Source: Pelagerythrobacter aerophilus
GTDB lineage: Bacteria > Pseudomonadota > Alphaproteobacteria > Sphingomonadales > Sphingomonadaceae
Reading direction: 5' to 3'
DNA: 64,000 bases
NCBI RefSeq assembly: GCF_003581645.1
Contig: NZ_QXFK01000014.1
Location: forward strand, 434,001 to 498,000
Shown: positions 37,335 to 59,627 of the stretch, in pieces
Position numbering within the stretch: the first letter of the stretch is position 1
Layout of the letters: every line of letters begins with the position of its first letter
The notes under the pieces: generated by a model
Databases searched by the model: none
Seen by the model: the letters and a program-made list of their open reading frames with translations, nothing else
What the model was told of the DNA's origin: nothing
Program-made: the position numbers and the translations under genes

Positions 37335-37344
37335 CCGTCCGTAG
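37335..37344 (+). promoter_or_regulatory. CCGTCCGTAG late-module motif, copy 1 (portal)
   Basis: Ten-base motif in the 47-base gap between terL and the portal gene. It ends 33 bases before the portal ATG; a CACACC block follows after 20 bases (37365-37370), 7 bases from the ATG. No Shine-Dalgarno sequence in usable position. Confidence 0.55.
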
Positions 37345-37377
37345 CCTGAATAGACTGGAGTTAGCACACCCGACCCC

Positions 37378-39258
37378 ATGGGCGTCGTGACAAACCTCCG
37401 AGATGGCCTGATCAACGCGCTCTCCGGCCGAGGCACGTCCATCGACCGCAGCCGCCACACGTTCTGGTGGTTCCAGCAGATGGACCCGACCCAGCTTCTC
37501 GCGGCCTATCGCTCTTCCTGGCTCATCTCCAAGATCGTCGACCTGCCCGCGCAGGACATGGTCCGCGAATGGCGCGAGTGGGAAGCCGAGGACGATCAGA
37601 TCAAGGCGATTGAAGCCGAGGAAGAGCGGCTTGGCCTGAACAGCGCGATACTGACCGCGCTCGTGTTCGGGCGTCTCGGCGGCGGTGCGGTGCTGCTCGG
37701 CACGAACGCGGCCGACCTCTCGCAGCCCGTTCGCCCGGGTGAAAAGCTGGTCTACGTGAAGGCACTCTACAAGCACCGTCTCACGCCGGGCGAGATCGAC
37801 TATGACCCGGCCAGCGATACGTTCGACGAGCCGCAGTATTTCACGCTGAGCGGGCAACGGGGCAGCGACCGGATCCACCCCTCTCGCTTGCTGATTTTCC
37901 GCGGCGAGCGCGTTCCGGACATGCTCGGCGGGCAACCCGCGAATGACTGGTGGGGGGATGCCGTCATCGATCGCGTCGACCGCGCCGTGAAGGATGCGCA
38001 GCGCGTGTCCGAGGGCTTTGCCGATCTCGTCGAGGAAGCGAAGCTCGACATCTACCGCATCGCCGGCATGACCGATCGGCTGCTGCAGCCAGGCGGCGAC
38101 GATGCCATGCGCAAGCGCTTCGAGGCCACCGCGCTCGGCAAGTCGAATTACCGCGGCATCTTCCTCGACAAGGAAGACGAGTGGGATCAGCGCCAACTCA
38201 CGTGGGCCGGGATGCCCGACATGGTGCGAGCCTACCTCTCGATCGTCGCAGGCGCGGCCGACATTCCCGCCACCCGCCTGCTCGGCAAGTCGCCCGACGG
38301 CATGAACAGCACCGGGGAATCGGACGAGAAGAACTACCGCTCCATGATCGCCACGCGGCAGAACATGGACTTGCGGCCGCAACTCGCCAAGCTCGACGCG
38401 ATCATGCTTCCCGGGCTGGGTCTGCCGGCCGATCTCTACTGGAAGTTCAGCCCGCTCGATACGCCGACCGAGAAGGAGTTCGCCGAGATCGACAAGCTCG
38501 AGGCGGAGACGGCGAACAACCTCTCGCTCTCCGGCCTGGTGCCCGAGACGGCACTGGCAAAGACCGTCCAGCAGCGCATGATCGACAGCGGACGGTGGCC
38601 GGCCCTGAAAGAGGGGCTGGAGGAAGCCGAGCGCGAGGCGAACGCAATGCCCGAGGGCGACGAGGACGATCTTCTCACAGCGGAGGAGCGCACAGCACGA
38701 AGGGAGGTGATCGAGCAATCTGCCGGTGGCGGGACGAACGCGCCCGCCCGCCGTGCCGCGAACGATGCCCGATTCCTCGCCGACGCCGCGCCCAAGACGC
38801 TCTACATCGAACGCAAGCTGATGAACGCCGACGAGGTGATCCGCTGGGCGAAGTCGCAGGGCCTCGAAACCACCCTCGCCGCTTCCGACATGCACGTCAC
38901 CATCGCCTACAGCCGCGCACCGGTGGACTGGTTCGCGGTCGGCACGGACTGGAGCGGCGACGAGAACGGCCACCTGCGCGTCCGCCCGGGTGGCCCGCGC
39001 GCCGTGGAGCGTCTCGGCGAAGGCGATGCGGTGGCGCTGATGTTCGCCGATGACCAGCTCGAATGGCGGCACAAGCGCATCGTCGAGGCTGGGGCGTCGT
39101 GGGATTGGCCGGAGTATCGGCCGCACGTCACGCTGACGTGGAAGGCCGAGGGCGTCAATGTGTCGACGATCGAGCCTTACACGGGGCCTTTGGTTTTCGG
39201 TCCAGAGCTGTTCAGCGAGGTCGACGAGGGCTGGCGCGGGAAGGTGAGCGAGGGATGA
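37378..39258 (+). CDS. Portal protein with C-terminal Acb1-like 2H phosphoesterase
   Basis: A 626-residue protein. Residues 1 to about 440 are a DUF1073-type portal (WLISKIVDLPAQDMVREWR near the start; ARLLGKSPDGMNSTGESD region), the ring through which DNA enters the capsid. From about 462 a second domain follows with two HxT motifs, H506-V-T508 and H583-V-T585, the catalytic pairs of 2H phosphoesterases. This domain is related to Acb1, which degrades cyclic nucleotides of CBASS immunity. Fusion of portal and Acb1-like domains is known from database families; activity here is inferred. Confidence 0.85.
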   Translation: MGVVTNLRDGLINALSGRGTSIDRSRHTFWWFQQMDPTQLLAAYRSSWLISKIVDLPAQDMVREWREWEAEDDQIKAIEAEEERLGLNSAILTALVFGRLGGGAVLLGTNAADLSQPVRPGEKLVYVKALYKHRLTPGEIDYDPASDTFDEPQYFTLSGQRGSDRIHPSRLLIFRGERVPDMLGGQPANDWWGDAVIDRVDRAVKDAQRVSEGFADLVEEAKLDIYRIAGMTDRLLQPGGDDAMRKRFEATALGKSNYRGIFLDKEDEWDQRQLTWAGMPDMVRAYLSIVAGAADIPATRLLGKSPDGMNSTGESDEKNYRSMIATRQNMDLRPQLAKLDAIMLPGLGLPADLYWKFSPLDTPTEKEFAEIDKLEAETANNLSLSGLVPETALAKTVQQRMIDSGRWPALKEGLEEAEREANAMPEGDEDDLLTAEERTARREVIEQSAGGGTNAPARRAANDARFLADAAPKTLYIERKLMNADEVIRWAKSQGLETTLAASDMHVTIAYSRAPVDWFAVGTDWSGDENGHLRVRPGGPRAVERLGEGDAVALMFADDQLEWRHKRIVEAGASWDWPEYRPHVTLTWKAEGVNVSTIEPYTGPLVFGPELFSEVDEGWRGKVSEG

Positions 39259-39437
39259 GCACCGTCCGCGAGCGCCGCCGAGCAGCCCTCAGGGTGCTCA
39301 GTCGCTTCCAGTTCGAACGCGGGCTGCCCGAATGTCCGCTGCGCATCGAGCGCCGGCCTGATCGCACGATCGCCCTGATAGGCACCGCTCCGGATGGTCG
39401 CGAGTATGGGGTCGGCTATTCGGCGGCGCGGTTATGA
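39255..39437 (+). CDS. Small basic phage protein
   Basis: A 60-residue, Arg-rich protein (VRERRRAALRVLSRF) overlapping the portal stop and the phosphatase start by four bases each. Function unknown; the overlaps support it as a real gene. Confidence 0.6.
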   Translation: MSTVRERRRAALRVLSRFQFERGLPECPLRIERRPDRTIALIGTAPDGREYGVGYSAARL

Positions 39438-40159
39438 CCCGCACCTACGCCATTGCGGACCTCCACGGCCGCTTCGACCTTCTCTGTCGCGCCATCGACT
39501 TGATCGAAGCCGACGCTGGCGACGCGGGCGGGAAGTTCGTCGTCCTCGGCGACTTTGTCGACCGGGGTCCGCAGAGTCGCAACATCATCGACCTGCTGAT
39601 GGCAGGGCCGCAGCGTCCTAACTGGGACTGGGTCGTGCTGCAGGGCAACCATGAGGCCATGATGCTGGAAGCGCTGTCCACGCCTTCCCCGCAGCTCATG
39701 CGCTGGTGGGTAGGCAACGGCGGCGGACAGACGCTGGAATCCTACGGCTACCGGAGCGGTGACGATCTCCTGCCGCTCCGGGTCCCGGTCGAGCACATGG
39801 AGTGGTTGCGCGCACTGCCGATCTATCACGAGGATGGCTGGCGCATATTCGTGCATGCTGGCGTTCCGTTCGATCAGCCGCTCACCGAGGCCAAGCCCGA
39901 AACCCTCCAGTGGATGCTCTATCCCGGCGACGTCGATCACGACGATGCCGAGTTTCATCCCGACGAGCAGCATTGCAGCGGCAAGCATATCGTCCACGGC
40001 CACCACCAGTCGGCGTCGCACCCGCTGCTTAAGCGCCATCGGACGAACCTCGACAGCTTCGCGTGGAACACCGGGCGTTTGGCCGTCGCAGTCTTTGAAG
40101 ACTACTATCCCGCGCCGGCACGGATCATGGATGCGCTTGGCCCATCGGCGGCACGCTAA
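39434..40159 (+). CDS. PPP-family metallophosphatase
   Basis: A 241-residue phosphatase with all PPP signatures: DLHG (9-12), GDFVDRG (39-45), GNHE (71-74) and HGHH (187-190), which hold two metal ions. Relatives include lambda protein phosphatase and bis(5'-nucleosyl)-tetraphosphatase. It is embedded in the head-gene operon between portal and MuF-like genes. A role against host nucleotide or protein-phosphorylation signals is possible but unproven. Confidence 0.87.
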   Translation: MTRTYAIADLHGRFDLLCRAIDLIEADAGDAGGKFVVLGDFVDRGPQSRNIIDLLMAGPQRPNWDWVVLQGNHEAMMLEALSTPSPQLMRWWVGNGGGQTLESYGYRSGDDLLPLRVPVEHMEWLRALPIYHEDGWRIFVHAGVPFDQPLTEAKPETLQWMLYPGDVDHDDAEFHPDEQHCSGKHIVHGHHQSASHPLLKRHRTNLDSFAWNTGRLAVAVFEDYYPAPARIMDALGPSAAR

Positions 40160-40395
40160 TGCCCTCCCTCCACCTCCTCCGCGACCACACCCTCGCCGAC
40201 ATTCCCGCGCACCTCCGCCGCGCCGCCGACCGCGCCGAGGAAGACCCGCTCCAGGCCGCGATCCTGCTCACGGTTGACGAGGACGGCGAAGTCGAGACCT
40301 ACGGATGGGGCCGCACCGACGCGCCGCAAACCCTCGCCACGCTGCACATCGCCGCTCACAAGCTGACCCGGAGCATGGCCGATGGCGAGCTTTGA
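40159..40395 (+). CDS. Small phage protein
   Basis: A 78-residue protein with a TAATG link to the phosphatase gene. Contains an acidic beta hairpin (AAILLTVDEDGEVETYGWG). No family recognised. It overlaps the MuF-like start by 14 bases. Confidence 0.6.
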   Translation: MPSLHLLRDHTLADIPAHLRRAADRAEEDPLQAAILLTVDEDGEVETYGWGRTDAPQTLATLHIAAHKLTRSMADGEL

Positions 40396-41338
40396 CCTCC
40401 CCGCGCTCGCTCGCCGGCAAGGCATCAGGCGCGACCTTACAATCCGCCCACCCGAGCCGACACAGGCCCATGCGCAGGAACTCGCGCGGCTCTACATGCC
40501 GATCGTTCGGGCGTGGCAGGAGAACATCGACGCGATCATGGCGGGCCACACCGTGCCGACACTGGACGGGACACGATTTACGATTGGCGTTTCGACGAAG
40601 GAAATCACCTCGGAAGCCAGCATTTCTGCGGGTTTGAGCCACGATTTACGCTCTGAGGAAATCACCCTTTCTGACGCACCGGCCGACCAGCAAGCAGCCA
40701 TCGACCGCACCGCCGAAGAAGTGTCGCGCCTCATCGTCGCATTCGGTGCCGGGGTCGAACGCCTAGCCGTCTCGATCGAGAAATGGCACCGATCGAAGTG
40801 GATCGCAGGCGTGAAGGCCGGCACGGAGGTCGACCTCTCGACCGTGCTGACCGCGCAACCCGTGCGCGAGACGCTGGAGGCGTGGATCGCGCGCAACGTG
40901 GCGCTCGTCACCGATGTCAGCGACCAGGCGAAGGGCCGCATCTCCGACGCCGTGTTCCGGGCCTACCAGAACCGGACGCCGACGCGCGAGCTGGCGCGGG
41001 AACTGCGCGAGGCTGTCGGCATGGCGCGTGCCCGGTCGATCAGGATTGCCGCGGATCAGAACACGAAGCTGAGCGGCGCGCTGGATGCCGAGCGCATGGC
41101 GGAGGCTGGCGTCGAGCTCTGGAAATGGCGCCACAGTGGGAAGCGTCATCCGCGCGAGCAGCACCGGGCGCGCAACGGCAGGATCTACCGGCTTGGATCG
41201 AACAAGCGGGCGAACGCTGACGGCACCGTCATGAAAGGCGGCGAGACCATCGCGTCGGGGGATGCGCCGAGCGAGCCGCCTTGGTGTGGGTGTCGGCGGC
41301 AGGCTTATCTGGCGATTATGGGTGAGGTCGAACGTTAG
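40382..41338 (+). CDS. Phage head morphogenesis protein, MuF-like
   Basis: A 318-residue minor capsid protein. The C-terminal part (about 215-300) matches the MuF domain: ARARSIRIAADQNTKLSG, WRHSGKRHPREQH and a PWCGCRRQA end. MuF-like proteins are few per capsid, associate with the portal and are ejected with DNA in some phages. Gene order portal then MuF is standard. Confidence 0.82.
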   Translation: MASFDLPALARRQGIRRDLTIRPPEPTQAHAQELARLYMPIVRAWQENIDAIMAGHTVPTLDGTRFTIGVSTKEITSEASISAGLSHDLRSEEITLSDAPADQQAAIDRTAEEVSRLIVAFGAGVERLAVSIEKWHRSKWIAGVKAGTEVDLSTVLTAQPVRETLEAWIARNVALVTDVSDQAKGRISDAVFRAYQNRTPTRELARELREAVGMARARSIRIAADQNTKLSGALDAERMAEAGVELWKWRHSGKRHPREQHRARNGRIYRLGSNKRANADGTVMKGGETIASGDAPSEPPWCGCRRQAYLAIMGEVER

Positions 41339-41625
41339 AAGACGTCTTCATAGCCCATCTTGGGCATGCGAGGCATGCGAGGCATAGGCGGGATCGGCGG
41401 TATTGGCGGAATTGGTGCGATCTTGGGAATCCGCGGCATCTTCGGCATCGCCGTGGTCTTGCGCATCACGTACGCGCCGTCGATCAGTTCACCCAGATAT
41501 TTGCCGTCGTGACCCCACACTTCGTTGCCATCAACATACCCGCGGTAGTTGCCTTTGGCGTCGAAGAGGTTGCCGTTGTTGATGTAGCCTGCCCACTGGC
41601 CGCCCGAGCGAAAAATGTGAGACAT
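41335..41625 (-). CDS. 4-fold beta flower domain protein with Pro-Met-rich tail
   Basis: A 96-residue protein on the strand opposite the late operon. Residues 5-55 have the repeated GxW/N-G-x-x-Y/L pattern (QWAGYINNGNLFDAKG, then GNYRGYVDG, GKYLGELIDG), typical of the small 4-fold beta flower domain. The tail (about 58-96) is a striking Pro/Met/Ile/Arg repeat (IPPIPPIPPMPRMPRMP). A strong GGGGGAGAG precedes the ATG. Its 3' end overlaps the MuF gene by 4 bases. A moron of unknown function. Confidence 0.72.
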   Translation of the reverse strand: MSHIFRSGGQWAGYINNGNLFDAKGNYRGYVDGNEVWGHDGKYLGELIDGAYVMRKTTAMPKMPRIPKIAPIPPIPPIPPMPRMPRMPKMGYEDVF

Positions 41626-41671
41626 ACGAATCTCTCCCCCTAATTTGCTCCCGGGGCGTTTGTGCCAGCTA

Positions 41672-41681
41672 CCGTCCGTAG
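41672..41681 (+). promoter_or_regulatory. CCGTCCGTAG late-module motif, copy 2 (capsid protease)
   Basis: Motif in the gap after the minus-strand 4-fold beta flower gene. It ends 34 bases before the protease ATG; CACACC follows after 21 bases (41703-41708), 7 bases before the ATG. Confidence 0.55.
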
Positions 41682-41715
41682 AAGCAATTGCTCCGCATGA
41701 GGCACACCGCGCACC

Positions 41716-42882
41716 ATGTTCCTCGCGGATCGCCTCACGCTCGATGCCCCCAAGCGCACGAAAGACGGCTACATGGCCGTCCGCGCCCGCGTCGCACGCA
41801 CAGGTCTCTACGACTACGCCGGCTACGAAGTTGACCCCGAGAACAAGCACGGCCTGCGCGACAAGGCCGTGGTCAAGGTCTTTCGCCCCGGCGACGAGGT
41901 GTTCAACCGCGAGAGCATCCACAGCTTCATCGGCAAGCCGATCACGAACGACCACCCGCGCGAGGGTGTGACGGCCGACAACTGGCGCGATCACGCCCGC
42001 GGCACGATCATGGGCGCGGTGCGCGACGGCGAGCACGTCGCCTTCGACCTGCTGCTCACCGACAAGGAAGCCATCGCCGCCGTCGATTCCGGCAAACGCG
42101 AGCTTTCGAACGGTTATGCCACCGACCTCGATTTTACTCCCGGCACGCATGACGGCATCGCCTACGACGCCGTGCAGCGCTCGATCCGCGGCAATCACGT
42201 CGCCCTGGTCGACCGCGGACGCGCCGGATCCAGTTGCGCGATCAAGGACGGCCTGCCCGTCTGCGACGCCATCACCGCCGACAAGCTCGACAGGCTCAAG
42301 GCATCCCTCACCAACGACCGAAAGGACGGCACCATGCCGCATACCCTCATTGTTGACGGCCTGCAGGTGCCGAACGTCTCGGACGAGGCGAAAGCCTGCA
42401 TCGAGAAGCTGCAGGGTCAGCTCAAGGACACGGCGGAAGCGAAGGACAAGGCCCTCGCCGACGTCGCCACCCTCACCACCGAGAAGCAGCAGCTCGACGC
42501 CAAGGTGACCACGCTCGAGAAGCAGGTCGCCGACGCGAAGATCACGCCGCAGCAGATGCGCGACGCCGCGAAGGCCTATGCGCAGGTCTGCGACAAGGCC
42601 AAGGCGCTCGGCGTCACCGTGTCCGACGAAATGGACGAACCGGCGATCATGAAGGCCGCTGTCTCGGCCAAGATCGGCGATGCCGCGAAGGATTGGAACG
42701 ACGCGCAGATTGCCGCCTCGTTCGCGACGCTGACGGCGGACGTGAAGGCCGGTGCGACTGTGCCGCACGGGATCATACAGCCGCTGGCCACTGACGCAGC
42801 CGGCATCGAGGCCAAGGCCTTCGAGGACTCGGTCAGCAACCTCAATGCATGGCGCGACAAGCGCGACGCGGCCGCGGCTTAA
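41716..42882 (+). CDS. DUF2213 prohead protease-scaffold protein
   Basis: A 388-residue protein. The N-terminal half (to about 185) matches DUF2213: YAGYEVDP, FNRESIHSFIGKPITNDHP and GNHVALVDRGRAG, the latter containing the likely catalytic region of a capsid maturation protease. The C-terminal half has a coiled coil (about 230-285) and Ala-rich helices typical of scaffolds. An in-frame ATG at 42334 (MPHTLIV) might allow a separate scaffold product. No ribosome site at the main start. Confidence 0.82.
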   Translation: MFLADRLTLDAPKRTKDGYMAVRARVARTGLYDYAGYEVDPENKHGLRDKAVVKVFRPGDEVFNRESIHSFIGKPITNDHPREGVTADNWRDHARGTIMGAVRDGEHVAFDLLLTDKEAIAAVDSGKRELSNGYATDLDFTPGTHDGIAYDAVQRSIRGNHVALVDRGRAGSSCAIKDGLPVCDAITADKLDRLKASLTNDRKDGTMPHTLIVDGLQVPNVSDEAKACIEKLQGQLKDTAEAKDKALADVATLTTEKQQLDAKVTTLEKQVADAKITPQQMRDAAKAYAQVCDKAKALGVTVSDEMDEPAIMKAAVSAKIGDAAKDWNDAQIAASFATLTADVKAGATVPHGIIQPLATDAAGIEAKAFEDSVSNLNAWRDKRDAAAA

Positions 42883-42894
42883 GGAGAAACGAAC

Positions 42895-43347
42895 ATGCCT
42901 GCTCTCCAGACCTCCTACGACCTCAATCAGCCTGCCGGCTTCCCCGGCATGCACGCCGACATGCGCGAATGGGATGCCGGGACGAAGACCGCCAGCGCGG
43001 TCATCGCCTTTGGCGCACCAGTCGAGCGGGACGGCGATGAAGGCTGCAACCCGCTGACCACCGGCGAATACATCGGCATCGCCGCCATCCGGCGCGTCAC
43101 CAGCGGCACCGGCGACACCTACGGCGTTGGCGACAACGTCCCGGTCGCCGACGAAGGCAACTGGTTCGGCATTGCTGGCAAGGCGATCGCTGCCGGGACC
43201 GCCCTCAACTGGGATTCGGCGAACCTTCGCTGGACCGACGCCGCGGTGGCTGGTGCCATCTACGCTGTCCCGCAGGCCGAGGCTGAAACAGCCGCGACCG
43301 GCGCCGATGCCATCTTCAAGGTGCGGCTGCGCCGCATCCCGTCCTGA
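42895..43347 (+). CDS. Head decoration/cement protein
   Basis: A 150-residue beta-rich protein (FGAPVERDGDEGCNPLTTG, IAGKAIAAGTALNWD) in the position between scaffold and major capsid, resembling structural cement proteins that trim the capsid surface. A clear AAGGAG box precedes the ATG, unlike the previous gene. Confidence 0.75.
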   Translation: MPALQTSYDLNQPAGFPGMHADMREWDAGTKTASAVIAFGAPVERDGDEGCNPLTTGEYIGIAAIRRVTSGTGDTYGVGDNVPVADEGNWFGIAGKAIAAGTALNWDSANLRWTDAAVAGAIYAVPQAEAETAATGADAIFKVRLRRIPS

Positions 43348-43358
43348 GGGGAACGAGA

Positions 43359-44327
43359 ATGAACATGCAGACTCATCAGTTCAACGACGCGGCGGCCTTC
43401 AACTTCGTCATCGCGCAGGCCTATACGATCAATCCGCGGGCCTACGAGACGAAGTTCCCGGAGCTGCCGTGGAACGAACTGGTCTTCGTCGACACTTCGG
43501 CCCCGGAGTGGACGCCGGGCATCGTCACCTTCATCTCTTCGACTGCCGGCGCGGCTCGCTGGTATTCGGGCGGCGCGAAGGACGTGCCGAAGGCCGATGT
43601 CACCATGGACAAGGTGCAGAACGCCGTCCACATGGCCGCGATCGGCTACGGCTACGATCTCGAAGAGGTCGGTCAGGCGCAGCTGCTCGGCATGAACCTC
43701 GGGACGCGGAAGGCCACTGCGGCTCGCCGCGCCTACAACGAGTTCATGTGGAACGTTACGCAGGTTGGCGATGCCGCCAAGGGCCTTAACGGCCTCATCA
43801 ACCAGTCCGGCGTAACGGCGGGAACGGCGCCCGCCGACGGCACCGGGTCCGTGACCACCTGGTTCGATGCTGGTGGCAATCCGACGAAGACCCCCGCGCA
43901 GATCCTGCGGGACTTCAACAGCGTCGTGATCGGGACCTACATCGGCAGCAACACGGTCGAGATGATCGACACCGTCCTGCTTCCGTTCGAGGTACTGGCA
44001 TGGCTCGGAGTGACGCCGATCAGCGACACGAACAGCGAGACCATCCTCTCGTACATCATGCGGAACAACTTCTACACGCAGCAGACGGGGCGTCAGCTCA
44101 CGATCCGCGGCGTGTTGGGGCTTGATACCGCTGGTGCCGGCAGCACGCGCCGAATGGTGGGCTACGCCAACCGCGAGGACGTGGTGAGCCTGCACCTGCC
44201 GATGCCGCACCGCTTCCTGCCGGTCTACCAAGATGGCCCGACGAACTTCGAGGTTCCCGGCATCTTCCGCACCGGCGGCGTCGATGTGCAGCGTCCGGGT
44301 GCCTTCCGCTACCTGGACGGGATCTAA
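43359..44327 (+). CDS. Major capsid protein, DUF2184 family
   Basis: A 322-residue protein of the HK97-fold DUF2184 group: FVDTSAPEWTPGI, GYGYDLEEVGQAQLLG and the C-terminal LPVYQDGPTNFEVPG are typical. Hundreds of copies form the icosahedral shell. Gene order protease, cement, major capsid is usual for this family. Ribosome site GAGGGGA. Confidence 0.87.
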   Translation: MNMQTHQFNDAAAFNFVIAQAYTINPRAYETKFPELPWNELVFVDTSAPEWTPGIVTFISSTAGAARWYSGGAKDVPKADVTMDKVQNAVHMAAIGYGYDLEEVGQAQLLGMNLGTRKATAARRAYNEFMWNVTQVGDAAKGLNGLINQSGVTAGTAPADGTGSVTTWFDAGGNPTKTPAQILRDFNSVVIGTYIGSNTVEMIDTVLLPFEVLAWLGVTPISDTNSETILSYIMRNNFYTQQTGRQLTIRGVLGLDTAGAGSTRRMVGYANREDVVSLHLPMPHRFLPVYQDGPTNFEVPGIFRTGGVDVQRPGAFRYLDGI

Positions 44328-44337
44328 GGAGGTCGAC

Positions 44338-44709: not shown

Positions 44710-44737
44710 CGGTCAACCTCCCGATCGTCACGCATAG

Positions 44738-44764
44738 GGGCGGGCCTGAGCGCCCGCCCTTTTT
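44738..44764 (+). terminator. Rho-independent terminator within the late region
   Basis: Stem of 8 perfect GC-rich pairs (44738-44745 with 44752-44759, GGGCGGGC and complement), 6-base loop, then TTTTT. It follows the capsid module and would limit read-through into the connector genes. Confidence 0.85.
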
Positions 44765-45976: not shown

Positions 45977-45986
45977 CCGTCCGTAG
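45977..45986 (+). promoter_or_regulatory. CCGTCCGTAG late-module motif, copy 3
   Basis: Motif two bases after the gp10-like stop in a 143-base gap. The next gene starts 132 bases downstream with its own ribosome site, so the spacing seen at other copies is absent. No CACACC block at 20-21 bases. Confidence 0.45.
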
Positions 45987-46118: not shown

Positions 46119-46442
46119 ATGCATGTCATTGCTAAGATGAATGTCACCTCAGTGGAGGACTACGGCGTCAGCCGGAAGATCAACTTCCGCTGCGTCTATG
46201 ACAACGGGATCAACACAGGCGACCACCCCGAGAATCAATCATTCACCAAGGCGACGCCGAGCGGCGAAGCGTGGATGACGGTCGACAACAAGGCAGTCTG
46301 GCCGGCGTTCAAACTACCCGGCGGCGAAGAGGAGAACTGGCGACCAGCATCTCAGCACTACGTTGTGTTCATCGACGCCAAAGAACATTCGCTCGACGAT
46401 GTGCACCGCGCGCTGGCGGCGCTGGCCCGTGATCCCGCGTAA
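46119..46442 (+). CDS. Phage protein of unknown function
   Basis: A 107-residue beta-rich protein preceded by AGAAGGA. Sections SVEDYGVSRKINFRCVYD and FIDAKEHSLDDVHRALAAL. Its character is unlike virion connectors; may be a regulatory or accessory protein. Function unknown. Confidence 0.62.
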   Translation: MHVIAKMNVTSVEDYGVSRKINFRCVYDNGINTGDHPENQSFTKATPSGEAWMTVDNKAVWPAFKLPGGEEENWRPASQHYVVFIDAKEHSLDDVHRALAALARDPA

Positions 46443-46584
46443 GTGGAAAGAGCGCGAGGTCGAGCAAACCGCTCGGCCTCACCCACACCCGCGCTGGCCG
46501 GGGTTGGTCGAAGAATACCCCACGCCCGTTTCCACCCCAGACGGCGATCCCGAACCGCTAGATCGCATGTTCGCCCGTCCGTAG
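46429..46584 (+). CDS. Putative 51-residue protein
   Basis: A short Pro/Glu-rich ORF from a GTG overlapping the previous gene end; its stop is the TAG of motif copy 4. It has no good ribosome site, so it is a weak call. Confidence 0.35.
   Translation: MIPRKWKEREVEQTARPHPHPRWPGLVEEYPTPVSTPDGDPEPLDRMFARP
46575..46584 (+). promoter_or_regulatory. CCGTCCGTAG late-module motif, copy 4
   Basis: Motif 53 bases before the start of the 172-residue structural gene. That gene has AGGAG at a normal distance. The second motif block is not recognisable. Confidence 0.45.
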
Positions 46585-46637: not shown

Positions 46638-47156
46638 ATGCCCGCTGGCGTTCACGCACAAATCCGCCTCTCTGTCGCGGCCTCGCTCACCGGAGCGAAT
46701 GACCTCGGCAGTCCGAAGCTGCGGCTCGACGACATCACCGAGGCGCTGGAACTCACGCCTGGCGCCGACGCGCTGGACAAGGCGGACCTGCTGTTCGCCG
46801 ACGCACGCACCCTCGCCGCCTCGGCAAGCGAAGATCTCGATCTCGCCGGACTGCTCACCGATGCGTTCGGCGCGACCATTACGGCCGCCGAGATCGTCCT
46901 GATCTACGTTAAGGCAGCGGCGGGCAACACGAACAACGTCACGGTCGCCCCTGCTGCGGCCAACGGCTTCAACGGCCCGTTCCTTGCCGCAGGAGACGGC
47001 GTGGCGGTGAAGCCCGGCGAATATTCCGTGTTCGTCAGCCGCACCGGTTGGCCCGTCACTGCGGGCACTGGCGATTTGCTCACCATCGCGAATAGCGGCG
47101 CCGGCACCGGTGTCGACTACGATATCGTGGTGATCGGCCGCACCGTCGCCGCGTAA
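46638..47156 (+). CDS. Phage structural protein, unknown family
   Basis: A 172-residue Ala/Gly-rich beta protein (AAAGNTNNVTVAPAA, VKPGEYSVFVSRTGW, GVDYDIVVIGRT). Its composition suits a virion surface or tail-decoration protein. AGGAG precedes the ATG. It overlaps the next gene by a base (TAATG). Confidence 0.68.
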   Translation: MPAGVHAQIRLSVAASLTGANDLGSPKLRLDDITEALELTPGADALDKADLLFADARTLAASASEDLDLAGLLTDAFGATITAAEIVLIYVKAAAGNTNNVTVAPAAANGFNGPFLAAGDGVAVKPGEYSVFVSRTGWPVTAGTGDLLTIANSGAGTGVDYDIVVIGRTVAA

Positions 47157-48189: not shown

Positions 48190-48561
48190 CTACCGCAGCC
48201 CAAACTGCGACTTCTGGATCAGCTCGCCGTTCTGGAACATGACGCTCGCGTTTGCTCCGAGCGAGCCCTCACCTTCGAATTGATACATCGCAGTGTGGAC
48301 GCCTGCGAGTTCGGACTCTGATATAAGCTTGCCGCCTGATCCCACGATTTCCTGCACCTCTGCGTGCGACATACCTGTGCGCAGCGCACTGAACTCGGCG
48401 AGTGTGATCCGATCGGCCACCGCGTCGTGCTGCTGACGAAGCACCGCCGTCTCGCGCGACAGCCTCTCAGCAGCCGCGTCCGACGTTTCGAATTGAGTTG
48501 CCAGATAGCCAATCCCGGCAATCGGGACGGCAGCAAACAACAACCAAGCCCACTTCGGCAT
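48190..48561 (-). CDS. DUF3862-like periplasmic-domain protein
   Basis: A 123-residue protein with an N-terminal signal anchor (about 5-22), a short coiled coil and a C-terminal domain matching DUF3862/SmpA-like folds: FSALRTGMSHAEVQEIVG and YQFEGEGSLGANASVMF. The fold is shared with beta-lactamase-inhibitor-like and BamE-like proteins. Opposite strand, paired with the zinc-ribbon gene; the likely GGGGAGAGG ribosome site overlaps nothing else. Confidence 0.72.
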   Translation of the reverse strand: MPKWAWLLFAAVPIAGIGYLATQFETSDAAAERLSRETAVLRQQHDAVADRITLAEFSALRTGMSHAEVQEIVGSGGKLISESELAGVHTAMYQFEGEGSLGANASVMFQNGELIQKSQFGLR

Positions 48562-48575: not shown

Positions 48576-48585
48576 CCGTCCGTAG
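48576..48585 (+). promoter_or_regulatory. CCGTCCGTAG late-module motif, copy 5 (tail tube)
   Basis: Motif directly after the minus-strand pair and 58 bases before the tail tube ATG. It could restart rightward transcription after the two opposite-strand genes. Confidence 0.5.
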
Positions 48586-48643: not shown

Positions 48644-49102
48644 ATGGCTTTTACCACCGGGAGAATCAAAGGGAACTACGCCGACATTTTGTACGGCGAC
48701 GGCGCTGATCCCGAGGCCTTCACCCAGCTTTGCGGCATCAACACGCGCGGGCTGAATATCACCTATGCCAGTGCTTTCGAGACCGAGGATTGGGATTGCG
48801 AGGACCCTGAGGCGGTCGCGCAGACCATCCGCGAGGTTGGCGCGCAGGATTGGTCGATCACCGGCTCCGGGCTCTACAACCGCGCGCAGATGTCCGCGAT
48901 CCGCGGCCTCATGGGGACTTCTCAGAACTGGCGTTTCGCCCTGGATGAGCCCGGCGCGCCCGCTGTCGCGATCGATGACGGCTATTGGGGTGGCCCCGGG
49001 TTCATCTCCAACTTCGAAGTGACCGGCAACAACGGCGAGTGGACGCAGGTTTCGATGACCATCACCGGGACTGGCCTGCTGGCGTGGACCGACGCTGCCT
49101 GA
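48644..49102 (+). CDS. Major tail tube protein
   Basis: A 152-residue protein with the tail-tube pattern: a beta-barrel start (AFTTGRIKGNYADILYGDG), ITYASAFETEDWDCED, and a C-terminal NGEWTQVSMTITGTG strand. Stacked rings of this protein form the tail tube. The absence of a sheath gene nearby fits a siphovirus. Confidence 0.75.
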   Translation: MAFTTGRIKGNYADILYGDGADPEAFTQLCGINTRGLNITYASAFETEDWDCEDPEAVAQTIREVGAQDWSITGSGLYNRAQMSAIRGLMGTSQNWRFALDEPGAPAVAIDDGYWGGPGFISNFEVTGNNGEWTQVSMTITGTGLLAWTDAA

Positions 49103-52505: not shown

Positions 52506-52507
52506 GC

Positions 52508-52517
52508 CCGTCCGTAT
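52508..52517 (+). promoter_or_regulatory. CCGTCCGTAT late-module motif, copy 6 (tail tip)
   Basis: Motif four bases after the tape measure stop. It ends 32 bases before the ATG at 52550. The second block reads CACGAC (52538-52543), 6 bases from the ATG. The motif runs into TATAAT here. Confidence 0.55.
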
Positions 52518-52549
52518 AATCCACCGCGCCTGCGCGCCACGACATCGCC

Positions 52550-53107
52550 ATGGCCGTCAACCGCGTCTCATGGCTCCTGCGCATCGACAGCGACCCGGTC
52601 TGCTACCTCTGGACCGGATTCGGGCCGCTTGAAACACCTGCCGACGCCGTAGACCCCGCTGGCGCGACATGGCTCGGTGCCGGTCACATCATCGGCATTC
52701 CGGGGCTACAGGCGCTCATCAACGGCGTCGCGGATCGCGTGAACTTCACCCTCTCCGGCGTCTCGCCCGAAACCCTGCGACTGGCGCGCGAGGACAAGGC
52801 CAGCGTCAAGGGCGCGCAGACGCGCATCGGGCACGTCGTGTTCGATCAGGACTGGCAACTCGTCGGCGGCATCACATGGGAGTGGCTTGGCATCGCCGAC
52901 GCCCTGCGCGTCGAAAGCCGTCATTCCGATGACGGCCGGGTGCGCTCGATCATCCTCATGGTCGGCGGTGCGGACACGTCCCGGTCGAACCCGCGCTTCA
53001 CGTTCTGGACCGATGCGAGCCAGCGCCTTCGCTCACCTACTGATGCGTTCTGCGATCACGTCGCGATGATCTCGCAGGGCGTGACGCGCCGGTTCGGGCC
53101 GCGCTGA
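52550..53107 (+). CDS. Distal tail/tail-tip protein
   Basis: A 185-residue beta-rich protein with no ribosome site. Its place between tape measure and the NlpC-like gene is that of the distal tail protein or the GTA gp12/gp13-type hub components. Aromatic and Gly residues (GGITWEWLGIADALRV) fit a hub beta-sandwich. Family not recognised with certainty. Overlap TGATG with the next gene. Confidence 0.68.
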   Translation: MAVNRVSWLLRIDSDPVCYLWTGFGPLETPADAVDPAGATWLGAGHIIGIPGLQALINGVADRVNFTLSGVSPETLRLAREDKASVKGAQTRIGHVVFDQDWQLVGGITWEWLGIADALRVESRHSDDGRVRSIILMVGGADTSRSNPRFTFWTDASQRLRSPTDAFCDHVAMISQGVTRRFGPR

Positions 53108-53505: not shown

Positions 53506-55529
53506 CCGCTCAGCTCGTCGCGTGGGGCGTCAGCCAGGCGGTCGCCTCGATCGCCGCTTATGCCATCACCACGGCGGCGACCTACTTCGCGTCCGGACTG
53601 CTCCGAGGCAGTCCGCCCAAGCCCGATGCCTCCGAGCGCGAGCACAAGAGCCCGACCCCGCCGCGCATCCACGTTCTCGGCGCGCGGCGGGTGTTCTGGT
53701 CGCTCATGCTCTACACGAACACCAGCGACAGCGAGACGGTGGACGTGGGCGCGTTCTGCGAGGGCCCGATCAACGCCGTCCTGCAACCCTACCTCAACGA
53801 CGACAAGGTGACGATCTCGGGCGGCTTCGTGCAGCAGCTCTCGGACGGCAGCTACGACGATAACAAGGTGCTGGCGGGCTACAACCTCGGCGCCAATCCG
53901 AACACCGCGCATGCCGCCGTGGTCAGCCGGGTGCCGCCGTGGACGAATAACCACCGCGGCGACGGCATCGTCTCGGGCTACCTCATCAAGACCGGCGTGA
54001 AGGGCGAGGACTTCCTCGACATCTACCCGCAGGGCGACAACGTGACGATGAGCCTCGCGGTGCAGGGGCACTTCTGCCACGACCCGCGCGATCCTGGCAG
54101 CGATCCCTACAATCCCAGCACATGGACCTACACCGAGAACGCGGTGCTCCACTATCTGTGGTTCAAGACCGTGTTCATGGGCAACGACTACGCGGCGAAG
54201 ATCGCGCCGGTCGAGCAGATGTGGATCGACGCAGCGAACGACTGCGACATAGCGATTCCGCTCGCTGCCGGCGGAACCGAGCCCAAGTACCGCGCTGCCA
54301 TCATCTTCCCGGCGGATGCCGACCCGGTGCAGGTCGACGACATGATCCGCAGCACCTTCGACGGGTGGAGCGCGGTCGACGAGAACGGCTGCATCAGGGT
54401 CCATTCCGGCAAGCTCTACGAGCCGACGGTCAGCGTCGGGCCGGATCAGATCGTCGACTACGAGCTGCAGGAGTTTGTCGAGGACGAGAACCGGCTCAAC
54501 GAGATCATCACGCGCTATGTCTCGGCGGCGCACGACTACAACGAGGTCGAGTGCCAGCCATGGCGTGACGACAGCGACATTGCCGAGCGCGGGAAGGTGG
54601 TCTCCACCACCGTCGAGCACCAGGTGCCCTCGCATACGCAGGCCCGGCGTCTCGACAAGCGGCAGATGGCGCGGGTCAATGCGCCCCAGCGCGGGCGAGT
54701 GCGGACGGTGTTCTCGGCACGTGAGGCGCTGGCCGAGCGCTACATCAACCTGACGATCGAGGAGGCCGGGACCGTGTTCTTCACCGGCGCGGTCGAGGTG
54801 ATCGGCGGCGAACGCGACAGTGAGACAGGCGGCGCGATAATCGAATGGGTCGCGGTCGACGAGAACGTGGACGCATGGAACCCGGCAACCGAGGACGGTC
54901 AACCCGCACCCACGGCCGCGAAATACTACCTGCCGCCACTGACCGCGCCGACGATCGCCACCGCCGTTGCGCAGATTGACGGCTCCGGCACTTTCGCGCG
55001 CATCGCGGTGACGTTCGATCCCATCAGCGCCGCGGCTCCGACTTGGTTCGTGCGGTGGCGCATCGACGGCGAGGCGTCCTACGTCGAGCAGGAGGTTACG
55101 CCGAGCGGTTCGACATTGCTCACAGGTGCCGTGCCTGCGGACGAGATGATCGACGTGGGAGTGGCCTACAATTCGGGCGGGCGATTCTCGGGCTGGTCGG
55201 CCGACACGACCATCAGCACCTCCACTGCGAACCTCGCGCCCGCCGCGCCGAGTGAGGTGACATCGACCGGCGCTGCCGGTGAGGCCGAAGTGACTTGGCG
55301 CAATCCATCGAGTGCTAACCTGAGCTACGTGAAACTGTTCCGCAACACAGCCGACGACTTCGGCACGGCTGCAGATGTGTCAGGCGAGATCGTCGGCGGC
55401 TTGGGTCAGGTCATGAGCGTAGTCGACGGCGGTTTGGCGCCTGGCACATACTGGTGGTGGGTCGTAGCCTACAATGCGAACGAGATCGCCTCCGCGCCGG
55501 GCGGTCCCGCTACCGCGACGGTGGCGTGA
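53490..55529 (+). CDS. Tail tip attachment protein J-like
   Basis: A 679-residue protein. It starts with a hydrophobic segment (about 10-35), then the phage tail-tip fold (PRIHVLGARRVFWSLMLYT ... NNHRGDGIVSGYLIKTG ... FEEDENRLNEI-like FVEDENRLNEIITRYV) and ends with two fibronectin type III-like domains (about 490-580, 590-675). It would form the central tip and help receptor contact. Confidence 0.82.
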   Translation: MPQAIAAQLVAWGVSQAVASIAAYAITTAATYFASGLLRGSPPKPDASEREHKSPTPPRIHVLGARRVFWSLMLYTNTSDSETVDVGAFCEGPINAVLQPYLNDDKVTISGGFVQQLSDGSYDDNKVLAGYNLGANPNTAHAAVVSRVPPWTNNHRGDGIVSGYLIKTGVKGEDFLDIYPQGDNVTMSLAVQGHFCHDPRDPGSDPYNPSTWTYTENAVLHYLWFKTVFMGNDYAAKIAPVEQMWIDAANDCDIAIPLAAGGTEPKYRAAIIFPADADPVQVDDMIRSTFDGWSAVDENGCIRVHSGKLYEPTVSVGPDQIVDYELQEFVEDENRLNEIITRYVSAAHDYNEVECQPWRDDSDIAERGKVVSTTVEHQVPSHTQARRLDKRQMARVNAPQRGRVRTVFSAREALAERYINLTIEEAGTVFFTGAVEVIGGERDSETGGAIIEWVAVDENVDAWNPATEDGQPAPTAAKYYLPPLTAPTIATAVAQIDGSGTFARIAVTFDPISAAAPTWFVRWRIDGEASYVEQEVTPSGSTLLTGAVPADEMIDVGVAYNSGGRFSGWSADTTISTSTANLAPAAPSEVTSTGAAGEAEVTWRNPSSANLSYVKLFRNTADDFGTAADVSGEIVGGLGQVMSVVDGGLAPGTYWWWVVAYNANEIASAPGGPATATVA

Positions 55530-55645
55530 TGGCGATCCAGTTCAAGCGAATAGCCGGCGCAGTGCGGCAGAACGGGAAACTCGTGCCGCTTGAGGAGGGC
55601 GAGGCAGTGCCGGAGCCTGCGCCTCCTCCACCTCCGGAGGGATAG
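55529..55645 (+). CDS. Small proline-tailed phage protein
   Basis: A 38-residue protein linked to the tail-tip gene by TGATG. Contains VRQNGKLVPLEEGEAVPEP and a run of Pro; probably a small tail or accessory protein. Function unknown. Confidence 0.5.
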   Translation: MAIQFKRIAGAVRQNGKLVPLEEGEAVPEPAPPPPPEG

Positions 55646-55646
55646 G

Positions 55647-55656
55647 CCGTCCGTAG
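55647..55656 (+). promoter_or_regulatory. CCGTCCGTAG late-module motif, copy 7 (fibre)
   Basis: Motif one base after the stop of the small Pro-rich gene. It ends 32 bases before the fibre ATG at 55689; CACACC follows after 21 bases (55678-55683), 5 bases before ATG. Confidence 0.55.
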
Positions 55657-55688
55657 CGAGTAGTGCCCGTTGCGAGCCACACCGCCGC

Positions 55689-58454
55689 ATGGCCTTCATC
55701 TTTCCGGCACACATCTTCGACCCCAAGAGGGTGACGGCGCGGGTGGTTCAGTCGGTAGTGTCCGGCGGCGTTGCTCTCAACGGCGAAGAGGACGTCATTG
55801 CAACCGATGGCGGCGGCCGGTGGGAGATCACGTTCGAAGGGATCAACCTGACCTCTCCAGAGAAGGTTCGCGCATGGGAGGCGTGGGAGGGGTATCTCGG
55901 TCGCGGGACCGTCGATTGCCTGGTGCCACTCTTGTCGCTCGCCTACGCAAATCGGCCGCAGACTGGCGGCAAGCCGGTGCGGGTTCCGCAGTTCGTCACC
56001 GACAACAACCTATGGCCCGAATCTGCTGGATATGCCGATCCCTACATCGTCGCGATCGCGGGGCAAGCGGCCTCGATGCGGGCCACCACGCTGCACATCG
56101 AAATCACCGCTGGGGCCGCACTCGAGGGAGGTGAGAAGTTCAGTTACAACGGGGCGGCTTATCGGGTCATCCGGGCACTCGGCGACAATTTGTTCCAGAT
56201 CGAGCCGCCGCTACGTGAGGCGATCCCGTTTGGTGCCGACCTGAATTTCGATTGGCCCACCACGCTCTGCCGCTCTGCCCCTGGCGAAAGTTGGTCGCCC
56301 ACCCTGAGTCTCAGTCGCTTCGGCGAGGTGACGATCCGCTTCCTTGAGAACGCGTCCGCAATCGGTGATGCCGGACAAATCGCGCTCGACGCGTCGAAGA
56401 ACGTGACTAACCATTTCACGCTGCCCGGCGATGGGATGGAGCCCAACAAGATATATCAGAACACCACCGGCCTTCCGGTGTCGGCGCAGGCATTCCTGAC
56501 TTCCGGCCTTATGCCGATCACGGATGCCATGCGCGCCACTGGCTTCACCATGTCGATCGACGGTGCGGCGCCGAATTGGCTGATGAACGCGGCGCGAGTG
56601 AATTTCTACAGCGCCAGCGCCGCTGCCGACTTCATTAGTTCGGTCACGGCCGGAGTAACACTAAGCGCAGACCTGCGAACCCTGACTGTGGCAGCAGCCT
56701 CGATCCCGGCCGCCGCCACGCACTTCGGGACGAACCTGAAATGGGCGCAGGGCATTCCCTCGCTGGTGTTTGCCAGCTCGAACGTCATTCCGACTGGCGC
56801 GGAGATCGAGCTGGCAAAAGCGGTGATGGTGAACTCCGGCACTTCGGCCGCCGCTCTCAGTCCATACGGCACTCCAAAGACCAAGGAATCCATCTCGACG
56901 GCACCCGATCTCGCGACCGGCGAGTTCGTTCTGTGCCAGCAAGGCTACGCCAGTTACATGCGCAAGCCGTGGAAGAGCGGCAAGCACATCGTCCAGAAGG
57001 TCGACTACAGCCCGGAGAGCCGCGACTACAACAACACCTATCAGTTCCGTTCCGTCGTTCAGATCGACGCCGCGACGCCGGCGCCGCTGACGCCGGGCGC
57101 GTTCGCTGCGAACTACAGTGGCACCGGCGCCAGCGCGAACACTTTTGCCGTGCAGTCGGATTGCCATCCCGCGTACAAGATCAACGGCATGTTCATGGGC
57201 GGCGCGCACGGCATCACGTCGAGCCTGGTCACCTCAACCGCGCACGGCAAGTCGAATGTCGACGTGGGCTCGATCTGGTCCGTGGGCGGTACAAGCTACA
57301 TGCTGACCGGCGTCTATGACGCGAACCGGCTGTTCCTGACCGCCCTGAACACCGGCACGGAAACGGAATGGTCCATCAGCGGCGATACGCTTACATCGGG
57401 AACGGCCACGCATGTCTCGGATGCGACGAACACGGCGGACTTCACCATTTCAACCGGCATTCTGGCCTACCTCTATCCAGCGACTGCGTTGGTCGATCAG
57501 CAGGTTAGGGTTCAGGGCGGCCTGAGGCTCGTTGCTGACGGGGTCTACACCGTGACCGAACGAGCGCAGGCCGTGACGTACCGAATTCCGAATGCGGCAG
57601 GCGTACTTGACGCGATTGCTGCCGATGTCGGCTCCTCCGAGCAGTTCGACTACAACAACCCCGCACTGCCGATGCAGCTTCAGCTCGACCTGCGATGGAA
57701 TGATGATGCGTGGGCCAGCTCGGTGACGCATCAGGTGACCGCGCTTCAGGACCATCACTGCGATTCCTCATGGCCTACGCAGTGGCAGGCGATCAATGCG
57801 CGATCCAGCGCCAGCGAAACGCTGCACTTCATCATCCCAGGCACAGTGCCTTGCGGTGCCGCGCTCGATCATAGCGGCACCGTCCGCGACTTCGGAACTT
57901 GGAATGACATCACCGCCAACACCGAGGAATACTACCATGACGCAGCCGTGTGGGAGGGTGCAAACTGGTGGGCTGACGGCATCCAGCGTGCGGCACTCGT
58001 CGCTGGTTATGGCGTCAAGGATTCGGGCGGCAACTGGCTACGTAAGTTCATCATGGCCCGGTCTCGCATCCAAGGATGGACAGCAGAGAACAACCCCACG
58101 ATTTCACACTTCCTGTCGACCTTCAACAAGGCCTACGCAGTCAGCCGGTGGAACGAAGATGTCGAGGCGGGTGACGTGCGGTCCGTAGTCGCGGGTTATG
58201 GCTGGATGGATCCGGCCTTCGACCCGCTCGCTGACATCAATTTCACCTTTCCTCTCGGCGGTGGCAGACATGAATGGATCTGGCACGCCACTGCGCCAGT
58301 TGCCGGTTACAGCGTGCCTAAGCGCTCCGACCTGGCCGGCAAAAAGGTCGAGATCGTCTGCCGCTCTGCGAGTTGCAGCGTGATCGTCGGCAGTGGCGGA
58401 GGGATCACGGTTACCACGAGCGGCGAAGGCGGTTTCACCGCGCTCGTCTACTGA
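55689..58454 (+). CDS. Large tail fibre/receptor-binding candidate
   Basis: A 921-residue protein with no ribosome site. N-terminal part (1-190) is a virion-attachment-type domain (FIFPAHIFDPKRVTARVVQ, VRAWEAWEGYLGRGTV). The rest is beta-rich with many Gly, Ser and Asn residues and aromatic patches. Its position after the tail tip and its size suggest the receptor-binding fibre. No chaperone or enzyme domain recognised. It ends overlapping the opposite-strand SGNH gene by 7 bases. Confidence 0.72.
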   Translation: MAFIFPAHIFDPKRVTARVVQSVVSGGVALNGEEDVIATDGGGRWEITFEGINLTSPEKVRAWEAWEGYLGRGTVDCLVPLLSLAYANRPQTGGKPVRVPQFVTDNNLWPESAGYADPYIVAIAGQAASMRATTLHIEITAGAALEGGEKFSYNGAAYRVIRALGDNLFQIEPPLREAIPFGADLNFDWPTTLCRSAPGESWSPTLSLSRFGEVTIRFLENASAIGDAGQIALDASKNVTNHFTLPGDGMEPNKIYQNTTGLPVSAQAFLTSGLMPITDAMRATGFTMSIDGAAPNWLMNAARVNFYSASAAADFISSVTAGVTLSADLRTLTVAAASIPAAATHFGTNLKWAQGIPSLVFASSNVIPTGAEIELAKAVMVNSGTSAAALSPYGTPKTKESISTAPDLATGEFVLCQQGYASYMRKPWKSGKHIVQKVDYSPESRDYNNTYQFRSVVQIDAATPAPLTPGAFAANYSGTGASANTFAVQSDCHPAYKINGMFMGGAHGITSSLVTSTAHGKSNVDVGSIWSVGGTSYMLTGVYDANRLFLTALNTGTETEWSISGDTLTSGTATHVSDATNTADFTISTGILAYLYPATALVDQQVRVQGGLRLVADGVYTVTERAQAVTYRIPNAAGVLDAIAADVGSSEQFDYNNPALPMQLQLDLRWNDDAWASSVTHQVTALQDHHCDSSWPTQWQAINARSSASETLHFIIPGTVPCGAALDHSGTVRDFGTWNDITANTEEYYHDAAVWEGANWWADGIQRAALVAGYGVKDSGGNWLRKFIMARSRIQGWTAENNPTISHFLSTFNKAYAVSRWNEDVEAGDVRSVVAGYGWMDPAFDPLADINFTFPLGGGRHEWIWHATAPVAGYSVPKRSDLAGKKVEIVCRSASCSVIVGSGGGITVTTSGEGGFTALVY

Positions 58455-59566
58455 AGATCGTCCCGGACCTGCCGCGCGAAGTGACGGCCGAGCAATTGAT
58501 TGCCTTGGTCCGAGGGATGCACCGTATCCATAATCAGGCCGCTAGCGCGCGCAGAGCTATACGCTCCAAGCACATCGCGAACTTCAATGACTGACAGGCC
58601 GAGTTCCCGAGCAAGGCCTTTCTTGACTGCGGCGTTCGCGAGGTGACGCTCCGATCCAGCGGCGTCCTGGGTCCCTCCGAACGCGTTGTGCTCGACCAGG
58701 TAGGTTTGCATTTCGGGCGCGCCTCTATGCGCTGCCTGGATCACTTTTCGCAGCCCCGCCTCATGAGTGGCCGGCGTATCGTCGCGCCAGTCGTTCGTGC
58801 CGGCATTCAGCAAGAACACATCGGGCAGCAGGGCGGCAAACCATTGCGTGCGCAACTCGCTGTCTTGAGCAGCAACATCGGCCAATTTGCGACCGCCGCG
58901 AGCCATGTTGACTACGACGAGACCGGGCTCATCGGACAATAGGAGCGCGCCAAACGCGGTCACGTTGCCGCTTGCGCTGCACTGGATACTTCCGCGGACA
59001 TCGATCCACCCGATGCCACTTCCGGAAGTATCGGCAACGCCTCCATTCCCGCATGTCAGCGTGCCGCCATCCGGCTGTGCTCGATAGAATATCCGAGCCT
59101 TGTCCCACCCTTCCGGTCCAGACCACGCGAAGGTTCCTCCATCGCTCGCCGCGATCCCTTCGCCGTCCAGCGAGCTGCTGCCATGGGGCGTATTGAGATG
59201 GAAAGGTCTGAAGGTGCCCCCGTATTTGAAGTCAGCGCCATGCTCTTCGGCGCCGCGCTCAGAGAACGACGCCCACCCCGGCCCGCCATCACCAAGCTCC
59301 CCGACCAGCTCCTGCCGGAAATAGCGGCGCCAGTCCGTCCCCCCGGCCCCATCCGTCAGGCTGTCGATTCCCGCTACAACAACGGTGTACGGGGCGAGAT
59401 CGGATTGGACGGGATTCTTCGCGGCGGTTGCCTCGGAGCCTTCCTGATAGACCCAGGCCGTTGCAGCTCCGCCGAGCAGAAGCACTGCGAGACCAGCGCC
59501 CACCAAGAGCGGCGTCCTGTTCGATTTGCGCGAGCGCCGGCGGCGCGAATGATGTCTACTGGGCAC
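58448..59566 (-). CDS. Signal-anchored SGNH/GDSL hydrolase
   Basis: A 372-residue enzyme with a basic N-terminus, one transmembrane helix (about 20-38) and a periplasmic SGNH domain. Blocks: VVAGIDSLTDG (I, with the nucleophile Ser), NMARGG (II), LNAGTND (III) and DTVHPSDQ (V, with Asp and His). SGNH enzymes de-O-acetylate or hydrolyse esters on sugars. On the strand opposite the late genes, next to the fibre, it may modify the cell surface of the lysogen. GTG start chosen; a longer frame exists. Confidence 0.83.
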   Translation of the reverse strand: MPSRHHSRRRRSRKSNRTPLLVGAGLAVLLLGGAATAWVYQEGSEATAAKNPVQSDLAPYTVVVAGIDSLTDGAGGTDWRRYFRQELVGELGDGGPGWASFSERGAEEHGADFKYGGTFRPFHLNTPHGSSSLDGEGIAASDGGTFAWSGPEGWDKARIFYRAQPDGGTLTCGNGGVADTSGSGIGWIDVRGSIQCSASGNVTAFGALLLSDEPGLVVVNMARGGRKLADVAAQDSELRTQWFAALLPDVFLLNAGTNDWRDDTPATHEAGLRKVIQAAHRGAPEMQTYLVEHNAFGGTQDAAGSERHLANAAVKKGLARELGLSVIEVRDVLGAYSSARASGLIMDTVHPSDQGNQLLGRHFARQVRDDLQ

Positions 59567-59617
59567 GGGCAAAACCCATAGCGTTACGCCCGACGGGCGC
59601 AATAGCGCCAATGCATG

Positions 59618-59627
59618 GCGTCCGTAT
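59618..59627 (+). promoter_or_regulatory. GCGTCCGTAT late-module motif, copy 8 (lysis)
   Basis: Motif in the gap between the divergent SGNH gene and the lysis cassette. It runs into TATAAT. It ends 33 bases before the ATG at 59661; the second block reads CAGAAC (59649-59654), 6 bases from that ATG. Confidence 0.55.

Follow-up and report, generated by a model that had tools for sequence, protein, structure and literature searches.

A one-orientation repeat in a Pelagerythrobacter aerophilus prophage as the probable upstream half of phage late promoters

Background

What a short sequence repeated in a single orientation among the late genes of a prophage might do is the question raised by a 64,000-nucleotide stretch of the Pelagerythrobacter aerophilus genome (assembly GCF_003581645.1, contig NZ_QXFK01000014.1, positions 434,001 to 498,000, forward strand), the whole of which is referred to here as the window. 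It holds a siphophage-like prophage in which a repressor-like gene (25458-26201, minus strand) and replication genes are followed by genes for a small helix-turn-helix (HTH) protein and the terminase small and large subunits, and then by those for the portal, protease, major head protein, tape measure and tail. An initial annotation had described eight copies of the motif CCGTCCGTAK, that is CCGTCCGTA(G/T), in the gaps of the late region, and suggested a late promoter element, a regulator-binding site or a processing site. In this article each copy is interpreted as forming the upstream half of a phage late promoter, with the 70 amino acid HTH protein (33966-34178, plus strand) as the most likely activator, a reading assigned a probability of roughly 0.77. 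Its components differ in strength: the sequence data make it very probable that the repeat belongs to a promoter and probable, by an association with real exceptions, that the HTH protein is the activator, while leaderless starts are a prediction. A search of the open-licence literature turned up no account of this motif or of how late genes are regulated in Sphingomonadales phages.

Results and discussion

The repeat in the window

The exact motif occurs seven times in the window, always on the plus strand (starting at 37335, 41672, 45977, 46575, 48576, 52508 and 55647), compared with a mean of 0.19 and a maximum of 2 in 100 dinucleotide shuffles, and is therefore repeated above chance. The eighth claimed copy, GCGTCCGTAT at 59618, also on the plus strand, has one mismatch to the motif, and was retained because the ATG at 59661 lies at the same distance as those following the portal and protease copies. 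An exact search of the window confirmed that the early region is devoid of the motif, copies of which begin only after the large terminase gene. Allowing two mismatches gave 93 occurrences in the window versus 121 expected, and this absence of any excess indicates that the site is tight. Across the 3.65 Mb genome there are 14 exact copies, seven of which fall within this 18-kb stretch and seven of which are scattered over the chromosome. None of the seven scattered copies has an ATG approximately 33 bp downstream (six were scored and the seventh judged by eye), and five of the six scored sit in a frame open across all 400 bp fetched.

Downstream of each of the eight prophage copies is a TA or CA dinucleotide whose A falls at columns 21-23 (counted from the last base of the box, with three positions of slack), and five have an ATG at columns 33-35. 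These five are the copies at 37335-37344 (CCGTCCGTAG), before the portal ATG at 37378 (column 34) and with a -10-like CACACC at 37365-37370; at 41672-41681, before the protease ATG at 41716 (column 35) and with CACACC at 41703-41708; at 52508-52517 (CCGTCCGTAT), before an ATG at 52550 (column 33) and with a -10-like CACGAC; at 55647-55656, before a tail gene ATG at 55689 (column 33); and at 59618-59627, where the ATG at 59661 (column 34) opens a 34-codon open reading frame (ORF) that runs at its end into the beginning of the following gene (59758). Two more precede start codons further away: the copy at 46575-46584 stands before an ATG at 46638 (column 54) with AAGGAG upstream of it, and that at 48576-48585 before the ATG of a tail-region gene at 48644 (column 59). 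The copy at 45977-45986 has a -10-like TATGGT from column 20 and would produce a long leader, since the next called gene begins only at 46119.

The copies at 37335, 45977 and 52508 start 2-5 bp past the end of the gene before them, and that at 46575 overlaps a weak ORF (46363-46584), as originally described, which was dropped by the crude gene caller. It had also been proposed that three copies stand where rightward genes resume after an opposite-strand insertion. According to the same gene caller, this applies to those at 48576 and 59618, which follow minus-strand genes at 48190-48561 and 58448-59503 respectively. Before 41672, no minus-strand ORF of at least 60 amino acids was found inside 41338-41640, a test that an ORF ending beyond 41338 would escape.

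Versions of the box in related phages

Searching for the major head protein gave a match in nine of 298 genomes of the family, including that of the window, and the eight other regions were fetched; a capsid protein search of genome_contigs for relatives returned none. When k-mers were counted in the relatives, without assuming a motif beforehand, the forward k-mers at or near the head of the ranking were CCGTCCGTA for the window and ACGGCGGTA / CGGCGGTAA in G073, G246 and G174, while GTCGGTAA in G244 and GTCCGTAG in G177 ranked below other repeats. The versions found in related prophages include ACGGCGGTAA, CGTCGGTAA and GACGACGGTAA, the last being the form present before genes in G144, where k-mers gave CGACGGTAA. 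The box of G206 is GGCGCTAGT, a pattern search found two copies of CGGCCGTAA in G046, and phage JY40 has five copies of GGCGGGAA. On our reading these versions have the register YGNCSSKAR in common; no repeated box of this register was found in G012 or JY42.

Placement of the box was compared by gene family in 17 phages, picked for having boxes. It precedes the protease gene in 16 of the 17, the portal gene in 13 and a tail-region family in 12, and hence stays before the same late gene families although gene content differs. Furthermore, each family keeps its own class of ATG column: 32-36 for the portal (13/13), 50-58 for the tail-region family (12/12) and 33-34 for the protease (14/16; in G361 and G610 the scan picked up a start codon closer to the box).

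Two phages deposited as Synechococcus phages, L016 (PP438430; JY40) and L015 (PP438432), share structural genes with these prophages, and JY40 additionally shares the box and the HTH protein; the true host of both may be a companion bacterium. A prophage in G012 (contig C7, 134231-144915; L034, L035) carries a different repeated box, AACCTACCG, with five copies on one strand, of which all five have TA at column 19-20 and two have ATG at column 32. No HTH protein of this family was found in that prophage region, and the same layout with another box suggests that the scheme may extend beyond this HTH family.

A -10-like element and start codons at fixed distances

Sites were gathered using each phage's own box, giving 180, of which 156 were left after removal of similar flanks. 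Conservation in the box columns follows from this choice of sites, in which neither TA nor start codons played a part. In 89 of the 156 a TA starts 21 bp past the last base of the box, other columns having 0-9, and column 22 is A in 85% of sites. Such fixed spacing fits a sigma-70 -10 element. Taking the A at column 22 as A(-11) places +1 at column 33, and with TA as -12/-11 the box spans about -44 to -33. Columns -50 to -13 of the alignment carry at most 0.12 bit each, and thus no separate -35 element was evident upstream.

Of the 156 sites, 101 have their first ORF-opening ATG at columns 32-36. For ORFs of at least 70 codons, the ATG is at column 33 in 38 sites and at column 34 in 48; a smaller group has the start codon at columns 53-58, and 16 sites have no such ATG within 130 bp. 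As the first ATG in 101 sites approximately coincides with the predicted +1, leaderless mRNAs are predicted for many structural genes. Phage transcripts are described in PMC5312081 as often leaderless, such that leaderlessness alone would not be new.

The conserved position, the -10-like TA at fixed spacing and the largely homogeneous, phage-specific versions of the box all support the originally suggested promoter element or regulator-binding site, and they bear on several other functions. An RNA element, or a processing or translation signal in the late mRNA, would account for the motif occurring just before genes, and yet the start-codon distances form two main groups (approximately 33-34 and 53-58) with no matching shift of the TA; such a signal seems a very poor candidate, and the processing site of the initial annotation would leave both the constant TA position and the coincidence of start codons with the predicted +1 unexplained. 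Mycobacteriophages harbour short one-orientation repeats in the gaps before genes, termed stoperators and start-associated sequences, the former being bound by the phage repressor and spread over early and late regions. The asymmetry, single orientation and mostly intergenic location of the present sites are what would be expected of comparable operators through which a phage repressor silences late transcription in the lysogen. However, they differ in that fixed distances separate them from a -10-like TA and from a start codon, which coincides with the predicted +1, and the early region lacks an exact copy, leaving repressor binding improbable in the extreme, if marginally less so than an RNA signal. 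Least credible is a boundary sequence retained for recombination between modules: these phages are strongly mosaic, but module exchange would need no fixed distance to a TA or a start codon.

A small HTH protein as the candidate activator

Comparing window genes with those of relatives using BLAST identified one small pre-terminase protein common to the window, G244 and G177, and reading the corresponding position in G073 and G246 revealed homologues there. An AlphaFold2 model of the window protein (39 aligned rows) has a mean pLDDT of 85.4 and helices at residues 14-30, 34-44 and 47-68, which we read as a predicted HTH with a Gly-Ala-Arg turn at 31-33. Searches of Pfam, PHROGs and NCBIfam gave no convincing family, and a sequence search of the PDB nothing meaningful (best E 0.56). 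The LTAV found at the C-terminus in G073 and G505 was not used as protein evidence, being the box itself read as codons. In these two genomes the HTH gene contains a box within its 3' end, ahead of the next gene (at 12512 in G073 and 5192 in G505, script coordinates), and so the regulator gene may carry a late promoter for the terminase genes.

A profile built from these five proteins (window, G244, G177, G073 and G246) matched 15 of 397 genomes of the family and 15 of 396 of the order, 27 distinct genomes in all. It led to seven previously unseen box loci (G368, G319, G361, G505, G511, G496 and G610), in which ACGGCGGTA is present in forward orientation in two (G610, an 8-kb contig) to ten copies, not all before genes. 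A repeated box was found at the HTH locus in 15 of the 27 genomes, or ten of 22 without the five used to make the profile; G602 has a single site on a short contig. A count of TGACGGCGGTAA across the 397 family genomes found six with at least four copies. Among the places listed, these cluster in a prophage in five (G073, G174, G319, G361 and G368), all of which fall among the 15 HTH-positive genomes, and the five copies in G161, which is not an HTH match, are scattered over five places. By hand calculation this concordance has a chance of about 4e-8 if independent, with the caveat that G073 helped to make the profile and that G073 and G174 had already been seen with the motif; G319, G361 and G368 were first found via the HTH protein.

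A profile of the RTNWR-type proteins identified 36 loci in IMG/VR, in which ACGGCGGTAA occurs 75 times forward and never in reverse from the HTH gene onward (305 kb), compared with 4 and 0 for a reversed-pattern control; upstream of the HTH gene (245 kb) the counts are 5 and 0, and 3 and 1 for the control. At class level, the same profile matched only the window's own genome among 385, and in another family of the order three weak HTH matches were obtained, with no box found in the two loci fetched. The hosts of the RTNWR-type loci in genome_contigs are Blastomonas, Allopontixanthobacter, Novosphingobium (two), Sphingomonas, Sphingopyxis, Rhizorhabdus and one alphaproteobacterial metagenome-assembled genome. 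The HTH protein of G246 is also present in L145, a record of Blastomonas natatoria DSM 3183.

A stricter count required TA or ATG at the right place, used seven listed box versions, and pooled IMG/VR, whole genomes and genome_contigs; the 40 loci from IMG/VR and genome_contigs form 33 groups by HTH protein. Of 46 loci with the N-W-R-type (RTNWR) helix, 39 have CGGCGGTAA as the main box and seven have no scored site. Three of the latter (L131, L135 and L149) hold a TGACGGCGGTAA that fails the criteria or lies upstream, and the other four (L108, L127, L147 and L150) are without CGGCGGTAA, with forward CGGCGGGAA present twice in L108 and once in L150. Among 12 loci with another readable helix (a thirteenth row, L126, is a fragment without one), eight have a different main box: CGTCCGTAG in the window, G177 and L144; CGTCGGTAA in G244 and L140; CGGCGGGAA in JY40; CGACGGTAA in G144; and TGGCGCTAG in G206. 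The HTH proteins of L140 and L144 are those of G244 and G177, respectively. The remaining four, G361, G602, G610 and G496, are of the GAR or GKR type and have CGGCGGTAA, and a simple rule in which the box version is set by helix type and nothing else was abandoned as a result.

Evidence against the HTH protein and the alternative readers

A number of observations weigh against the proposed promoter and its activator. No box was found at the HTH locus in 11 of the 27 genomes, ten of which were examined: G147, G046 and G012 at their HTH loci, G526, G578, G557 and G572, and G365, G451 and G457 across 6-10 kb; G453, the eleventh, was not fetched. Four of the 11 are good HTH matches (E 1e-16 to 4e-18). 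The link between helix type and box is uncorrected for relatedness, and several of the loci represent the same or nearly the same phage (L140/G244, L144/G177, L118/G505 and the L103 group/G246); G505 and L118 also each carry one extra CGTCGGTAA site. G319 and G361 share the box and ten DNA stretches of 77-94% identity, and yet have different HTH subtypes. Comparing the HTH model using Foldseek gave no confident PDB match, and the best viral match (E 7e-3) is unnamed. At the level of the sites, the -10 elements of the window are poor (CACACC) and the signal is weaker there than in the 156-site set, and one of the seven scattered chromosomal copies, L157, also has CA at columns 21-22. Finally, phages of the GAR and GKR types encode a second possible DNA-binding protein. 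In the window this is a 185 amino acid protein (33412-33969, plus strand), a possible partner whose gene overlaps that of the HTH protein; it resembles the LmbU family of regulators (NF038070; E 1.6e-14), aligning to positions 3-129 of the 171-position profile with a score of 54.2, below the cut-off of 125 bits.

The missing boxes, the mismatch between G319 and G361, and the location of the LmbU-like gene directly upstream of the HTH gene in the window, JY40, G361, G496, G610 and G602 are all features expected if the copies were late promoters read by another factor, whether of the host or of the phage (the LmbU-like protein or an unseen sigma-like one), with the HTH protein otherwise employed, for instance in packaging, given its place beside the terminase small subunit. 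This is unlikely, though the alternative to be taken most seriously. In the 31 regions searched, an LmbU-like protein was found in those six only, and not in the box-carrying RTNWR-type phages. The differing box versions within one host family disfavour a host factor alone, and the prophage clusters of TGACGGCGGTAA occur only alongside the HTH gene, among the places listed in the 397 genomes. In G046, the HTH gene is on contig C17 and the boxes and late genes are on contig C6. A small gene following the HTH gene is 93.5% identical between G319 (5836-6075) and G361 (7751-7999, script coordinates), and its position beside different HTH subtypes suggests a swap of regulators.

Proposed mechanism and comparison with known systems

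Under the late promoter reading, a phage activator, most likely the HTH protein, would bind the box, an asymmetric site of 10-12 bp covering about -44 to -33, and substitute for the -35 hexamer. It would thereby bring the sigma-70 RNA polymerase of the host to a weak -10, the A(-11) of which lies approximately 22 bp past the box. Encoded just before the terminase genes, the activator would be made after induction, whereupon the late promoters would fire in parallel, including those just after opposite-strand cargo genes, where transcription must restart. At many copies the start codon would be +1, giving leaderless mRNAs for the portal, protease and other proteins, and others would generate a short leader, as for the gene at 48644.

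Small phage activators serving several late promoters are exemplified by C of Mu and Ogr of P2, although the position and layout of their sites differ from those of the present box, and the HTH protein lacks a convincing match to any named family. In the middle promoters of T4, which depend on sigma appropriation by MotA and AsiA, a MotA box centred about -30 takes over from the -35 element and the sigma-70 -10 is preserved (PMC6755090). Activator boxes in place of the -35 with a -10 retained would be common to both systems. By contrast, the box described here is centred about -38, the protein is a small single HTH domain and not MotA, no AsiA partner is known (no search for one was made), and the genes concerned are the late genes of temperate siphophages, many with predicted leaderless starts.

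More tentatively, and with the odds somewhat against it, this unnamed small HTH family may be a stand-alone replacement for sigma-70 -35 recognition in temperate phages of Sphingomonadales, each phage having its own box, that drives leaderless capsid and tail mRNAs. The proposal offers a testable late-gene switch for a temperate phage group for which none was found in the open-licence literature. The natural box versions would allow the joint change of activator and promoter to be studied, and the predicted leaderless structural-gene mRNAs would suit study of their high-level translation.

Neighbouring genes

Directly 3' of the HTH gene is that of the terminase small subunit (34171-34587, plus strand), followed by that of the large subunit (35216-37330, plus strand), which has no motif copy before it. 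The large subunit contains an insertion of approximately 259 residues with intein-like ends, starting with Cys and ending with His-Asn before a Cys, and including a GWLAGILDGEGW stretch; the G246 homologue is without it. The C-terminal domain of the portal protein (37378-39258) matches the Pfam family Acb1, an anti-CBASS protein (E 9.6e-43, residues 473-620).

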